The position numbers and the translations under genes were made by a program. The notes beneath the pieces were generated by a model. The model was not told the origin of the DNA, did not search any database, and saw nothing but the letters and a program-made list of their open reading frames with translations. From Desulfurispirillum indicum S5 (GTDB taxonomy: Bacteria > Chrysiogenota > Chrysiogenetes > Chrysiogenales > Chrysiogenaceae): 64,000 bases of DNA. Numbering within the stretch: the first letter of the stretch is position 1; every line of letters starts with the position of its first letter. The stretch covers positions 291,501 to 355,500 of the forward strand of contig NC_014836.1 in the NCBI RefSeq assembly GCF_000177635.2. The letters are read 5' to 3'. This document shows, piece after piece, positions 5,309 through 55,349 of the stretch.

Positions 5309-5434
5309 CAAGCCGCTGAAAAACGCCCATCTGCGGCGTTGCCTGCGGTCGCTCGTCATTGCAACGTACGGGGAGTACGCTTCATTCCTCGCTCTGCAGG
5401 CGTCTAGCACCTGAACATTTTTCAACAACTTGCC
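5309..5434. repeat. Family A repeat, copy 1 (~126 bp imperfect hairpin)
   Basis: Starts AGCCGCTGAAAAACG and ends CATTTTTCAACAACTTGCC, with an apical CGTAC-GGGGA-GTACG hairpin, so the element can fold on itself over its length. It closely matches 25739-25862 and resembles 55061-55183. It fills most of the draG-draT intergenic space and its end runs into the 5' end of the draT open frame. Confidence 0.85.
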
Positions 5435-6312: not shown

Positions 6313-6739
6313 TCCATTGTCCTTTTTTGGTGCGGCCAAAAAAGGACCAAAAAAGCCGCCCCCCGACGCCCGTTTCTCCGGTTCGTTTGCTCGCCTGCTC
6401 TGGAGATCCGGCAGACGCTGCATCCCTGCAGCTCTGCCGGACCACCTGCTTCCTGCAGGTGTCCCGTGCGGGTCTTGCCAGCCAGGCTTCACACTCACCG
6501 GACGGGCTCAGGGGGGATTATCTTTTGCCTTGCCTCTCCCCCGTGTGCTGTTCCAGCCAGGACGCGCTGACTGGAACGCGGTAGACCCGAAGGGTTGCCG
6601 CCACGAGGGCGGCAACCGCAAACACAAGCCAGGGATGGCGGTTGTTTGCGGTCCCCAGTTCCAGGCAAGCGGACGGCTGAAGAGGACAGCACTGGGGGTC
6701 GCTTTTGCGCCACTTTTGGCGACCCAAAAGTGGCAAAAA
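6313..6739. repeat. Family B mosaic repeat, copy 1 (~425 bp)
   Basis: This fills the space between draT and nifZ (convergent). The left end has the hairpin TCCTTTTTTGG-TGCGG-CCAAAAAAGGA. The middle is rich in short inverted repeats (for example CCGGCAG.../CTGCCGG and a GCCGCC-rich stem near 6597-6616). The right end has the hairpin GCCACTTTTGG-CGAC-CCAAAAGTGGC, which abuts the nifZ stop codon. Most of it recurs at 54807-55349, and its right third at 11733-11878. It contains several open frames without coding character, and I see no gene in it. Confidence 0.85.
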
Positions 6740-7721: not shown

Positions 7722-9086
7722 ATGCACAGAACCACCCTCCCCCCACCCGACACCACCTGCGAGCACCATCAGGGCGGACAGCATCAGCAGCAGAAAAAAC
7801 CCAAATGCGCCAAGCCCACTCCTGGCGGAGCATTGGGCGGCTGCGCCTTTGACGGTGCCCAGATTGTCCTGCTGCCCATCGCTGACGCGGCACACCTTAT
7901 CCACTCCCCCGCCACCTGCGTGGGCAACAGCTGGAATAACCGGGGAACCCGCTCCAGCCACAGTGCCATGTATCGTCAGGGCTTCACCACGGATCTGACC
8001 GAAATGGACATCATCATGGGAGCTGAGCAGAAACTGCTGCAGGCGGCCCTGGAACTGGCCCAGCGCTTCGCGCCCCCGGCCATCTTCATCTATTCCACCT
8101 GTGTCAGCGCCATGACGGGCGAGGACATTGGTGCCGTGGCCGCTGAAGTTGGCCGTCAGACCGGCATCCCCGTCATCCCGGTGGACAGCCCCGGCTTTGT
8201 GGGCAGCAAAAACTACGGCAACAAGATCGCGGGGCAGGTTCTGCTGGAACATGTCATTGGCACGGCCACGCCCCCCCACACCACAGATACCGACGTCGCC
8301 ATCATCGCCGACTACAATATCGCCGGAGAGCTGTGGCGCATCGAGCCCCTGCTGGAGCGCGCGGGCATACGCCTGCTCAGCCGCATTACCGGCGACGCCA
8401 CCTACGCTGAAGTGGCCTGGGCTCACTACGCCCGTGCCAATATGGTGGTGTGCAGCCGCGCCCTGGTGGACATGGCCCGCCAGCTGGAGGCAAAACACGG
8501 CATTCCCTACTTTGAAGGCTCATTCTACGGCATGCAGGCCACCAGTGACGCCCTGCGCACCATGGCGCGCATGCTGAAAGTGCCGGAAATACAGCAGCAG
8601 GTGGAAGCGGTGATTGCCAGCGAGGAAGCCCGCACCCGCGCCGCTCTGGCCCCCTATCTGCCCTTTCTGAAGGACAAGAAGGTCTTCGTCTACTCCGGTG
8701 GCGTCAAGAGCTGGTCCATGGTCTTTCAGCTGGAAGAGCTGGGGATGGAAGTGGTCGGCAGCGGTATTCGCAAATCCTCGGAAGAAGACATCGAACGCCT
8801 GCGCATTCATTTTGAAGGAACCCAGAAGATCATGCTGGAAAAGGGCGATGGCGCCATGATGCTGGAACTGCTGGAACGCGAAGGCGCCGACGTCTTCATC
8901 GCCGGCAGCCGCAATATGTTCACCGCCATGAAAGGGCGCTACCCCTATGTGGACGTCAACCAGGAACGCATCTTCTCCTATGCCGGCTATGACGGCCTGG
9001 TGGAACTGGCCCGCCAGCTCTACCACACCATGACCTCGCCCGTATTTGACGTGGCGCGCACCACCGCGCCCTGGGAAAGCCCGTAG
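7722..9086 (+). CDS. nifE: Nitrogenase FeMo-cofactor scaffold protein NifE
   Basis: 454 residues from the ATG at 7722 (AAGGAG upstream). NifE signatures: an N-terminal cysteine/histidine-rich leader (C13, C29), GGCAFDGAQIVLLPIADAAHL with C41, HSPATCVGNSW with C66, and STCVSAMTGED with C127, i.e. the cluster-ligand cysteines shared with NifD. With NifN it forms the NifEN scaffold on which the NifB-derived precursor becomes FeMo-cofactor. The RGTRSS segment supports NifE rather than the NifD catalytic subunit. First gene of nifE-nifN-nifX; unusually, 217 bases containing a repeat of family C separate it from nifN. Confidence 0.96.
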   Translation: MHRTTLPPPDTTCEHHQGGQHQQQKKPKCAKPTPGGALGGCAFDGAQIVLLPIADAAHLIHSPATCVGNSWNNRGTRSSHSAMYRQGFTTDLTEMDIIMGAEQKLLQAALELAQRFAPPAIFIYSTCVSAMTGEDIGAVAAEVGRQTGIPVIPVDSPGFVGSKNYGNKIAGQVLLEHVIGTATPPHTTDTDVAIIADYNIAGELWRIEPLLERAGIRLLSRITGDATYAEVAWAHYARANMVVCSRALVDMARQLEAKHGIPYFEGSFYGMQATSDALRTMARMLKVPEIQQQVEAVIASEEARTRAALAPYLPFLKDKKVFVYSGGVKSWSMVFQLEELGMEVVGSGIRKSSEEDIERLRIHFEGTQKIMLEKGDGAMMLELLEREGADVFIAGSRNMFTAMKGRYPYVDVNQERIFSYAGYDGLVELARQLYHTMTSPVFDVARTTAPWESP

Positions 9087-9116
9087 GTGAACTCATGCAA
9101 AGCCAGGAAGCTACCA

Positions 9117-9252
9117 TAAAAGGCAATTCCTCTCGCCCGTTCGCTGCGCTCACTCAAGTCGCCAGGAACGCCAAGAAGAACACAAGCAAAGCAGGGCTTT
9201 TACCAGCATATCTTTGCGCCTTTGCGTCTTGGCGAGAAAACTCTGCCTTTCC
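9117..9252. repeat. Family C element, gene-less (solo) copy between nifE and nifN
   Basis: The left part (AAAAGGCA..., CTCGCCCGTTCGCTGCGCTCACTCAAG) is the reverse complement of the right flank of the GxxExxY element (about 22625-22670). The right part (TTTGCGCCTTTGCGTCTTGGCGAGA...CTCTGCCTTT) is the reverse complement of its left flank (22138-22180). Both ends are present and the central gene is missing, so this is an inverted, internally deleted derivative. Confidence 0.8.
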
Positions 9253-9303
9253 TGCTTTTTGTCACACGGTAACCATGAACAGTTACTTCAAAGGAGACAG
9301 CAA

Positions 9304-10620
9304 ATGAACCATCGCAACCTGCACGTCAATCCACTGAAAAAAAGCTCCGTCTTCGGTGCCACCCTGGCCATGCTGGGTATAGACCAGGCGCTGGCGCTGC
9401 ATCACGGTTCCCAGGGCTGCACGGCCTTCACCAAGAATATCCTCACCCAGCACTTCCGCGAAATCACCCCCATGCAGACCACGGCCCTGTGCGATATTGC
9501 CACCATCATGGGCGACGACGTCAATCTGCACGAGGGGCTTAATACCATCATCACCAAAGCCCAGCCGCGCCTGGTGGGCCTGATCACCACCGGCGTCAGC
9601 GAAACCAAAGGCGACGATGTGGAAGGCGGTGTCAGGCGTTTCTACGAAAAATATCCCCAGCACGCAGGGGTACCCGTCATCACCATCAACACCCCCGACT
9701 ACCAGGGCGACGCCCAGTGGGGCTATGTGCAGGCCGTGCAGGCCCTGCTTGACCAGCTGCCCATCGCGAAGCAGCCCGTCAACTCCCGTCAGATCACCGT
9801 GCTGGCCAGCATGGCCCTGACGCCGGGAGATGCGGAAGAGCTGAAGGAAATTATCGCCGACTTCGACCTGGAGGCCATCGTCCTGCCCGACCTGGGGGCC
9901 ACCATGGGCGGCGGCGTGGATCATTACATCAAGGTGCCCGAAGGCGACTACCCCCTGGAAAAACTGCTGCAGGTGGGGGCGTCGGCCCACACCATTGCCA
10001 TCGGCGCCAGCATGGAGGAAGTCGCCCGCAGCCTGCAAGAGCGCTTTGGTACCCCCATCAGCCTGCTTCCTTCCCTGATCGGAGTTCACAACAGCGACAA
10101 CTTCATTATGGCCCTCAGCCGCATCAGCGCAAAGCCCGTGCCGCAAAAATACAGCCGCCAGCGCCGCCAGCTGCTGGACGCCATGCTGGACAGCCACTTC
10201 TTCTATAACGGCAAAAGCGTCATCATCGCCGCCGAGTCGGACCTGGCCCTCAGCATGGCCGACTTTCTGCACCACGAAACTGGCCTGGACATCGCCTGCG
10301 CCATCGTCAGCCACCGCCTGCCAGGCGAATCCGACCCCCACTACCCCATACTCACCGGCGACCTGGGCGACCTGGAAGACCTGGCCAACGGCTGCAGCGC
10401 CATCATCACCAACAGCAACGGCATCCTGGCCTCCACCAGGAAAAACATCCCCCTGCTGCGGGTAGGCTATCCCATCAAGGATCGCCTCGGCGAACAACTG
10501 AAAGTCTTTATCGGCTACCGGGGCAGCCGCAATCTGGTCTACGAGCTTGGCAATATCTTTCTGGAACAGGACGAAGAAGCATCATTTCATTACAAGAACA
10601 TTCGAGGAGTACCGGCATGA
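9304..10620 (+). CDS. nifN: Nitrogenase FeMo-cofactor scaffold protein NifN
   Basis: 438 residues from the ATG at 9304 with AAGGAG at 9291-9296; an upstream in-frame start reads out of repeat C and is not used. NifN/NifK-like features: LHVNPLKKSSVFGATLAMLGIDQALALHHGSQGC with cluster-region C39, VGLITTGVSETKGDD, and VPVITINTPDYQGDAQWGY. It forms the alpha2beta2 NifEN complex with NifE. It overlaps nifX by four bases (ATGA), indicating translational coupling. The C-terminal ~30 residues after GYRGSRNLVYELGNIFLE are short, as in other NifN. Confidence 0.95.
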   Translation: MNHRNLHVNPLKKSSVFGATLAMLGIDQALALHHGSQGCTAFTKNILTQHFREITPMQTTALCDIATIMGDDVNLHEGLNTIITKAQPRLVGLITTGVSETKGDDVEGGVRRFYEKYPQHAGVPVITINTPDYQGDAQWGYVQAVQALLDQLPIAKQPVNSRQITVLASMALTPGDAEELKEIIADFDLEAIVLPDLGATMGGGVDHYIKVPEGDYPLEKLLQVGASAHTIAIGASMEEVARSLQERFGTPISLLPSLIGVHNSDNFIMALSRISAKPVPQKYSRQRRQLLDAMLDSHFFYNGKSVIIAAESDLALSMADFLHHETGLDIACAIVSHRLPGESDPHYPILTGDLGDLEDLANGCSAIITNSNGILASTRKNIPLLRVGYPIKDRLGEQLKVFIGYRGSRNLVYELGNIFLEQDEEASFHYKNIRGVPA

Positions 10621-11732: not shown

Positions 11733-11878
11733 TTGCCAGCCGCCACGAGGGCGGCAACCGCAAACACAAGCCAGGGATGGCGGTTGTTTGCGGTCCCCAG
11801 TTCCAGGCAAGCGAACGGCTGAAAAGGACAGCACTGGGGGTCGCTTTTGCGCCACTTTTGGCGAAACAAAAGTGGCAA
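11733..11878. repeat. Family B mosaic repeat, copy 2 (right third only)
   Basis: Begins GCCGCCACGAGGGCGGCAAC and ends at the GCCACTTTTGG/CAAAAGTGGC hairpin. Nearly identical to 6597-6739, with a change in the terminal loop (GCGAAA instead of GCGACC). The left two thirds of the element are absent. Confidence 0.85.
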
Positions 11879-22137: not shown

Positions 22138-22670
22138 AAAAGGCATGTATCTCGCCAAGGCGCAAAGACGCCAAGGGAAAATACTATTCTGTTAATCCGT
22201 TTACAATACGAACGATTCCATCTTTCATGAGCGCTTCGCCAAAATTCAGCAGGAAACCAAGCTTTTTATCGGTAAGACGCAAGTACGTCAGAAGCTGCTT
22301 TTTATGTGTATTCTGAATACACTCCACTGACTTTAGCTCAAGAATAATCATGTTGTTTACAACAATATCAGCGCGAAACCCTTCATCAAAGATTCTTCCA
22401 TTGTAGTGTATGGGCACAGAAACTTGCCGCTCAACCTGCAGGCCCTGCTCTGTAAGTAATTGGGCGAGGATTACTTCGTAAACACTCTCCAATAGCCCAG
22501 GCCCAGTGTTTTGATGAAGCTTTACCGCAGTATCCACAATGATTTTTCCAAGAGCATTTTCACTTAACATGGTTGCTGTCCTGCGAAATTGCATGGCAAA
22601 GAGTTATTTCTTCTTTGCGCCTTTGCGCCTTGAGTGAGCGCAGCGATCGGGCGTGAGGCACTGCCTTTTT
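22138..22670. mobile_element. Family C element carrying a GxxExxY gene
   Basis: Bounded by AAAAGGCA (22138) and TGCCTTTTT (ending 22670) in inverted orientation. Inside each end lie complementary cassettes of the type CTCGCCAAGGCGCAAAGACGCCAAGG and CTTTGCGCCTTTGCGCCTTGAG. The central gene is AT-richer than its neighbours. The same two ends without the gene occur inverted at 9117-9252. No transposase is present, so any mobility would be non-autonomous. It separates murA from glnE. Confidence 0.65.
22184..22570 (-). CDS. GxxExxY protein
   Basis: 128 residues from the ATG at 22570 (AGGA upstream). It contains the defining GPGLLESVYE (G-x-x-E-x-x-Y) and a PD-(D/E)xK nuclease-like arrangement: GFRADIVVNNMIILELKSVE, with D and E-x-K placed as in that fold, then YLRLTDKKLGFLLNFG and a C-terminal IVRIVNGL. 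Function is unknown; the nuclease-like core is known for the family but activity is unproven. The gene sits centrally between terminal cassettes, suggesting it belongs to the element. Confidence 0.9.
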   Translation of the reverse strand: MLSENALGKIIVDTAVKLHQNTGPGLLESVYEVILAQLLTEQGLQVERQVSVPIHYNGRIFDEGFRADIVVNNMIILELKSVECIQNTHKKQLLTYLRLTDKKLGFLLNFGEALMKDGIVRIVNGLTE

Positions 22671-25738: not shown

Positions 25739-25862
25739 CAGGCTGCTGAAAACCCCCCATCTGCGTCGTTGCCCGCTGTCGCTCGTCATTGCAACGTACG
25801 GGGAGTACGCTTCATTTCTTGCTCTGCGGGCGCCTTGCACCTGTGGGTTTTTCAATTGCCTG
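25739..25862. repeat. Family A repeat, copy 2 (124 bp)
   Basis: Begins CAGGCTGCTGAAAAC and ends TTTTTCAATTGCCTG, with apical CGTAC-GGGGA-GTACG. About 60 central bases are nearly identical to copy 1 at 5309. A second partial end (TTTCAGCAGGCTGCTAAAAAG) follows at about 25877-25897. It lies between the MBL gene and glnE, and covers any promoter for glnE. Confidence 0.88.
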
Positions 25863-25907
25863 CCTGGGTTGAGGTATTTCAGCAGGCTGCTAAAAAGCCT
25901 TGGCCTG

Positions 25908-54806: not shown

Positions 54807-55349
54807 TGTCCTTTTTGACCGCGCAAAAAGGACACAAAAACGCGCCCCCCGAACGCCCGTTTTTCCGGATCGTTGGCTCGCCTGTCCTGGAGATCCGGCA
54901 GACACTGCATCCCTGCAGTGCTGCCGGACCACTCACTTCCTGTGAGTGTCCCGTTCGGGTCTTGCCAGCCAGGCGTCGCACTCACCGGACGGGCTCAGGG
55001 GGGAACGGCCTGCTTCTGCCTCTCCCCCGTGTTCTTTCCCAGCCAGGACGCACCAACTGTCAGGCTGCTGAAAAGCCTCATCTGCGGCGTTGCTCACAAG
55101 TGCTCGTCGCTGCGACGTACAGGAAGTACGCCTCACTCCTCACCTTGCTTGCGCCTTGCACCTGAGAGCTTTTCAATTGCCTGTATAACGCGATGGACCC
55201 GCAGGGTTGCCGCCACGACGGCGGCAACCGCAAACCAAAAGCCACGGAGGGCGGTTGTTTGCGGTCCCCAGTTCCAGGCAAGCGGACGGCTGATAAGGAC
55301 AGCACTGGGGATCGCTTCCCAGCCACTTTTGGCGACCCAAAAGTGGCAA
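54807..55349. repeat. Family B mosaic repeat, copy 3, interrupted by family A
   Basis: Same order of blocks as 6313-6739: the left TCCTTTTT/AAAAAGGA hairpin, GATCCGGCAGACNCTGCATCCCTGCAG-like middle, the CACTCACCGGACGGGCTCAGGGGGG stretch, then GCCGCCACGA/CGGCGGC and the terminal GCCACTTTTGG hairpin. The block order is broken after CAGGACGCACCAACTG by family A copy 3 and resumes at AACGCGATGGACCCGCAGG. Confidence 0.85.
55061..55183. repeat. Family A repeat, copy 3 (123 bp), inserted into family B
   Basis: Starts CAGGCTGCTGAAAAG and ends CTTTTCAATTGCCTG: 15-base terminal inverted repeats with three mismatches. The apical hairpin is CGTAC-AGGAA-GTACG. The uninterrupted B copy at 6313 shows what the target looked like. 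Confidence 0.88.

Follow-up and report, generated by a model that had tools for sequence, protein, structure and literature searches.

The nifE-nifN spacer of Desulfurispirillum indicum contains, at 9119-9250, a short gene-less copy (solo) of a dispersed repeat whose longer form carries a GxxExxY gene. Copies of the family are scattered through the genome, arms of the same kind flank GxxExxY genes across bacterial phyla, and solos and gene tend to occur together. The favoured explanation, held with moderate confidence, is that 9119-9250 is a solo of a dispersed (CRCNRAGN)n-armed element mobilised by the GxxExxY nuclease. Positions refer to the window, that is, the whole stretch of 64,000 nucleotides that was analysed, unless a locus or contig is named.

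A solo in the nifE-nifN spacer and its gene-bearing counterpart

The spacer measures 217 bp, between the NifE stop at 9086 and the NifN start at 9304, and the solo takes up 132 bases of it. The features of both copies, with the basis for each, were as follows.

9087..9303, no strand: nifE-nifN spacer with insertion; limits of NifE and NifN, and shorter spacers in relatives
9119..9250, plus strand: gene-less (solo) copy; alignment to 17 further complete D. indicum solos
9119..9125, plus strand: outer inverted end AAAGGCA; pairs with TGCCTTT at 9244-9250, conserved in the solo alignment, local to D. indicum
9131..9177, plus strand: left arm, consisting of TCTCGCC, an 18-nt insert CGTTCGCTGCGCTCACTC (9138-9155) and AAGTCGCCAGGAACGCCAAGAA; sequence
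9178..9211, plus strand: gene-free linker between the arms; sequence
9212..9237, minus strand: right arm of three 8-nt units, TCTCGCCAAGACGCAAAGGCGCAAAG on the minus strand; exact pattern match
9244..9250, minus strand: outer inverted end TGCCTTT; solo alignment and sequence
22138..22669, minus strand: gene-bearing copy between murA and glnE, in opposite orientation to the nif copy; sequence match
22150..22176, plus strand: arm TCTCGCCAAGGCGCAAAGACGCCAAGG of the gene-bearing copy; exact pattern match
22184..22594, minus strand: GxxExxY gene, 136 aa, predicted PD-(D/E)XK nuclease fold; TIGR04256, PF13366, invariant residues and structure model
22613..22656, minus strand: inverted arm with 18-nt insert, gene-bearing copy; 89% identical to 9118-9162
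22662..22669, minus strand: outer inverted end TGCCTTTT of the gene-bearing copy; sequence

The preliminary description had proposed two regions with common ends, inverted relative to each other, and they were found to match at both ends. Positions 9118-9162 aligned with the reverse complement of 22625-22669 over 45 nt (89%), and the reverse complement of 9212-9237, TCTCGCCAAGACGCAAAGGCGCAAAG, paired with TCTCGCCAAGGCGCAAAGACGCCAAGG at 22150-22176. A BLASTN check of the kind suggested, with 9112-9262 against the whole genome (a single contig of 2,928,377 bp), recovered the copy at 22.6 kb (62 nt at 84%, E = 5e-12), and either window region led to about 50 related places genome-wide. Hence the shared element with inverted ends, in gene-bearing and gene-less forms, was confirmed in both forms. 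Its limits were sharper than first noted, lying at AAAGGCA (9119-9125) and TGCCTTT (9244-9250). The shared ends were upheld, but AAAAGGCA could not be kept as the defining part, being local to D. indicum; across phyla, the defining part was the pair of arms with an 8-nt period, CRCNRAGN. The core-to-arm span of the nif copy was 104 nt, which is typical of the commonest class of solo.

Two other candidates for the nif copy were rejected: no terminator or promoter was found on the plus strand, and an RNA element was discounted after there was no Rfam match and folding was no better than that of shuffled sequence, as RNA or as DNA. A separate dispersed repeat family was also present in the window (6325-6736, 11739-11878, 54812-55349, 5309-5434 and 25739-25864); its copies were up to 97% identical and two of them lay near nif genes. 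Outside the window, an IS3-type element some 1.3 kb long (L240:3497-4809, with HTH_Tnp_1 and rve ORFs; L240:2304-5100 equals G000:C1 about 728803-731600) interrupted nifK. The frame was open beyond the insertion, and with the IS3-type element inside it nifK of D. indicum looks broken.

Age of the insertion

The nifE-nifN spacing was otherwise tight, as had been supposed: 217 bp in D. indicum compares with about 40 bp or less in most relatives. In the nearest relative (G002, of the same family, with NifE 77% identical) the spacer was about 40 bp, and at the other junctions compared from the same phylum the two genes mostly overlapped or lay up to about 20 bp apart; the exception was L082, a divergent pair that stood further apart. 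Judged against these shorter spacers, the D. indicum spacer has about 175 extra bases and so holds an insertion. The same comparison shows that the nif copy arose after the split from G002, a family-level relative and the nearest genome compared. The suggestion that the insertion was probably recent was not supported: identity between the nif copy and each of the 17 other aligned complete solos was 56-67%, against a mean pairwise identity of 68% among those solos, which places the nif copy outside any fresh burst. No target-site duplication was evident by eye around the aligned solos, and no empty site turned up in the same species or a close strain.

The family within the D. indicum genome

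Four GxxExxY genes were present, one with an internal TAG, and each was flanked by inverted short-period repeats, of four different flavours. The core occurred 34 times in the D. indicum stretches searched, 18 times with an inverted partner arm and 16 times without. Complete solos therefore numbered at least 18, a lower bound drawn from the places searched and the stretches retrieved; in 12 of the 18, the arm span was 103-104 nt. A mechanical scan placed 14 of the 34 core occurrences within ORFs of 130 aa or longer, an overlap of little weight given how often long frames arise spuriously in D. indicum sequence. Both window copies were intergenic. Single-arm copies and strings of arms of mixed flavour were frequent, and a simple transposon with terminal inverted repeats does not account for them.

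It had been proposed that the element can lose its gene. The gene-less form is real, but it is also the commoner one (4 genes, but 18 or more complete solos), and so gene loss is only one of two possible directions.

Further arm flavours, with CGGAA, CGAAT or CAGAT units, were numerous in D. indicum loci, strung together with CGCNAAG arms. At one D. indicum GxxExxY gene (L031), the arm ACCACGGAATACGCGGAAGGACACGGAAAGG was directly repeated on both sides (L031:1200-1500) and a complete inverted pair persisted downstream of the gene.

Arms around GxxExxY genes across phyla

Loci were picked by protein alone, using one genome per species, and the best 80 of at least 590 stretches were taken, covering many phyla. 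The arm motif, defined as three CRCNRA units, was found 146 times in the near flanks (46.5 kb), compared with 0.15 in shuffled sequence; further out its density was 0.13 per kb. Seventy-three loci had enough flank for a search for inverted repeats. Across the gene, the best inverted repeat had a median score of 17, against 9 in distant controls from the same locus, and 26 of the 73 had no such repeat in the flanks with a score of at least 14. A null built from mismatched loci was inflated because arms are alike across phyla. In 39 of 73 loci the motif occurred on the plus strand upstream and on the minus strand downstream, which is the orientation of an inverted pair. The units had a period of 8 nt, the distance found in 57 of 70 spacings, with an autocorrelation of 0.49 at lag 8.

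The gene stood between direct repeats at 22 of the 73 loci. Whole solos were repeated in this way at several of them (L173, L174, L141 and L136), making gene loss by recombination plausible, if unproven. Protein similarity was correlated with arm similarity (Mantel r = 0.43, p = 5e-4), although the loci are related and thus not independent, and co-inheritance alone could explain the correlation.

Co-occurrence of solos and gene

Among 60 relatives the strict arm pattern was found in two, D. indicum (15) and G002 (1); these were also the only members of the phylum with GxxExxY among the relatives searched. A looser pattern was detected in 28 of 30 gene-bearing genomes from many groups, with up to 92 copies, while reversed-pattern controls were almost always zero. 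In 201 Flavobacterium genomes, the motif was present in 124 of the 166 with the gene and in 3 of the 35 without it (Fisher p = 2e-13), and the association persisted with genome size in the model (p = 3e-10); since the species are related, these p-values overstate independence. Copies per genome ranged from 0 to over 160. The exact pattern, the one flavour counted, was absent from 42 of the 166 gene-bearing genomes; other flavours exist. One Flavobacterium without GxxExxY (G250) had six motif copies, all on the same strand, perhaps a remnant or an array.

In F. rivuli, most solos measured 80-150 nt; TCACGCAAAGTCGCGAAGCCGCAAAG is an example of their arms, and the arms within one solo were more alike than arms of different solos (permutation p = 1e-4). 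Around some F. rivuli solos (L223, L225, L227, L238) lay a larger inverted frame, rich in AT and ending ATACCATT...AATGGTAT, and an inner palindrome, AGCGACTGTTAAGTCGCAAAGCTTTGCGACTTAACAGTCGCT, was often found within these solos.

Broken copies of the GxxExxY gene were identified at L033 (TAG) and L094. The gene was nearly absent from mobile replicons, with no phage records, 7 of 72,556 plasmids and one viral contig containing it; on this near-absence, phage or plasmid cargo was rejected.

The GxxExxY protein

The window protein is an ordinary family member (TIGR04256, 133.7 bits, the curated cut-off being 35, E = 3.6e-39; PF13366, 9.5e-38). Nine residues were invariant in 81 sequences (G31, G33, E36, Y39, D76, E86, K88, N117 and F118), of which the catalytic-type residues E36, D76, E86 and K88 fit a PD-(D/E)XK active site. 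Sequence searches returned no homologue of known structure. The AlphaFold2 model of the 136-aa protein had a pLDDT of 91.7, and its top PDB match by Foldseek was SSO0001, a Cas4 nuclease (E = 1.6e-4, moderate TM-scores). Phage-type or lambda-exonuclease-type exonucleases came next, and tRNA-splicing endonucleases lower. GxxExxY is described here as a putative PD-(D/E)XK nuclease.

Comparison with known systems

REP/BIME sequences and RAYT genes offer a precedent: the repeats are short, inverted, intergenic and numerous, the gene is rare and linked to them in trans, and copies of the repeat also flank the gene. However, RAYT is a Y1 HUH transposase acting on a palindrome, whereas the gene linked to the D. 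indicum repeats belongs to PF13366, not to the Y1 HUH transposases, with a predicted PD-(D/E)XK fold and arms of 8-nt period. The family resembles MITEs in being short, gene-less, inverted at its ends and multicopy, with a longer gene-bearing relative; the 18 complete solos have these properties, and there are single-arm copies too. Unlike MITEs, which derive from transposase-encoding insertion sequences, the GxxExxY element has no transposase, and its gene-bearing form encodes GxxExxY instead. On analysis, the family is best read as MITE-like and associated with a putative PD-(D/E)XK nuclease, its solos being comparable to solo LTRs.

The 23S rRNA intervening sequence (IVS) is similar in having a small ORF between terminal inverted repeats, a short-period tandem repeat and a selfish appearance. 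It differs in its four-helix-bundle protein, its 7-nt period and its 23S location, and the motif classes did not overlap in the loci tested. No match to TIGR02436, the family of this S23 or four-helix-bundle ORF, was found in D. indicum, and the window copies sit at nifE-nifN and murA-glnE, outside 23S rRNA genes. As a control, flanks of 300 bp were taken from TIGR02436 genes, one per genome, in 30 genomes with and without GxxExxY (L190-L219). The CRCNRA motif was found in none of the flanks of these 30 genes. Eighteen of the 30 were flanked by inverted repeats of their own (null, 2 of 120), and these arms had a period of 7 nt (autocorrelation 0.60 at lag 7). The IVS of Coxiella burnetii, whose ORF encodes a four-helix-bundle protein, is reported to carry heptamer repeats as well as inverted repeats at its ends (PMC4990558), and the 7-nt period agrees with the heptamers reported there. 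The comparison suggests that GxxExxY and 23S IVS elements may share one plan, served by two unrelated proteins.

Multicopy nucleotide sequences in Geobacter are intergenic families of palindromic or direct repeats, with repeats of 6-42 nt (PMC2996986). No linked gene is mentioned in their description; the comparison is by description, and sequence overlap with the present family is possible. A search of the accessible literature on GxxExxY, its repeats or its solos produced nothing relevant. This family of small repeats with inverted ends of 8-base period is widespread in bacteria and apparently undescribed.

Alternative explanations

Solos might be spread by some other enzyme, such as a REP-type or IS transposase, with GxxExxY a passenger that homes into a cut solo by repair. 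This would account for solos being far more numerous than genes, for the solo-gene-solo order in several loci, for the L031 gene lying between direct arm copies with a complete inverted pair downstream, and for the wider inverted-repeat frame around F. rivuli solos. However, gene-free genomes are almost without the motif, which would be unexpected unless solos decay fast, and gene and arms covary; we regard the explanation as rather unlikely, while still the chief rival. The elements could otherwise be IVS-like and act at the RNA level, with the arm stem cut by the host (as the 23S IVS is by RNase III) and the protein acting on RNA. Such a role is improbable, given that the D. indicum copies are intergenic and outside rRNA as far as looked, that the nif copy, once folded, is no more stable than shuffled sequence (z = -1.2 as RNA), and that the top fold matches are mostly DNA nucleases with tRNA-splicing endonucleases lower down. 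It draws on the common plan of the four-helix-bundle IVS genes with their 7-nt-period arms, on the Coxiella IVS with its inverted ends, heptamers and ORF (PMC4990558), and on the covariation of the two arms of a solo.

It is very improbable that the repeats are regulatory or structural sites of the cell (for the nucleoid, termination or mRNA stability) to which GxxExxY is linked functionally as a host nuclease. Dozens of copies in many genomes and the intergenic position of the window copies would be expected of such sites, but the patchy distribution, broken genes, genome-specific flavours and variable copy number look selfish, and the nif copy has no terminator on the plus strand. Short and degenerate arms invite the objection of chance similarity, or of generic low-complexity intergenic repeats. 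This is scarcely credible when 146 motifs were observed against 0.15 expected, the reversed pattern was near zero and the four-helix-bundle flanks lacked the motif; the shuffle, reversed-pattern and other-gene-family controls refute it.

Proposed mobilisation by the GxxExxY nuclease

We infer that the GxxExxY nuclease moves the elements. Under this preferred explanation, the arms would be recognition sites of the nuclease, which would nick or cut there, and repair of the break would copy the element, with or without its gene, into new intergenic sites. Solos would then be either non-autonomous copies or what remains once direct copies on the two sides of the gene have recombined and deleted it, in the manner of solo LTRs.

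A wider proposal is made tentatively and falls short of being probable: that there may be a bacteria-wide class of selfish elements, each combining a nuclease-fold (8 nt) or four-helix-bundle (7 nt) protein with its own short-period inverted arms, in which solos and gene-bearing copies spread without a transposase. Much of the intergenic repeat content that lacks an explanation in Flavobacterium, cyanobacteria, planctomycetes and others might belong to such a class.

Annotated as 'function unknown', GxxExxY is very common and was present in 166 of the 201 Flavobacterium genomes sampled. The 8-nt-period arms provide it with a defined DNA partner, turning an orphan family into a concrete mobile-element hypothesis and suggesting where the abundant intergenic repeats of many phyla may come from.
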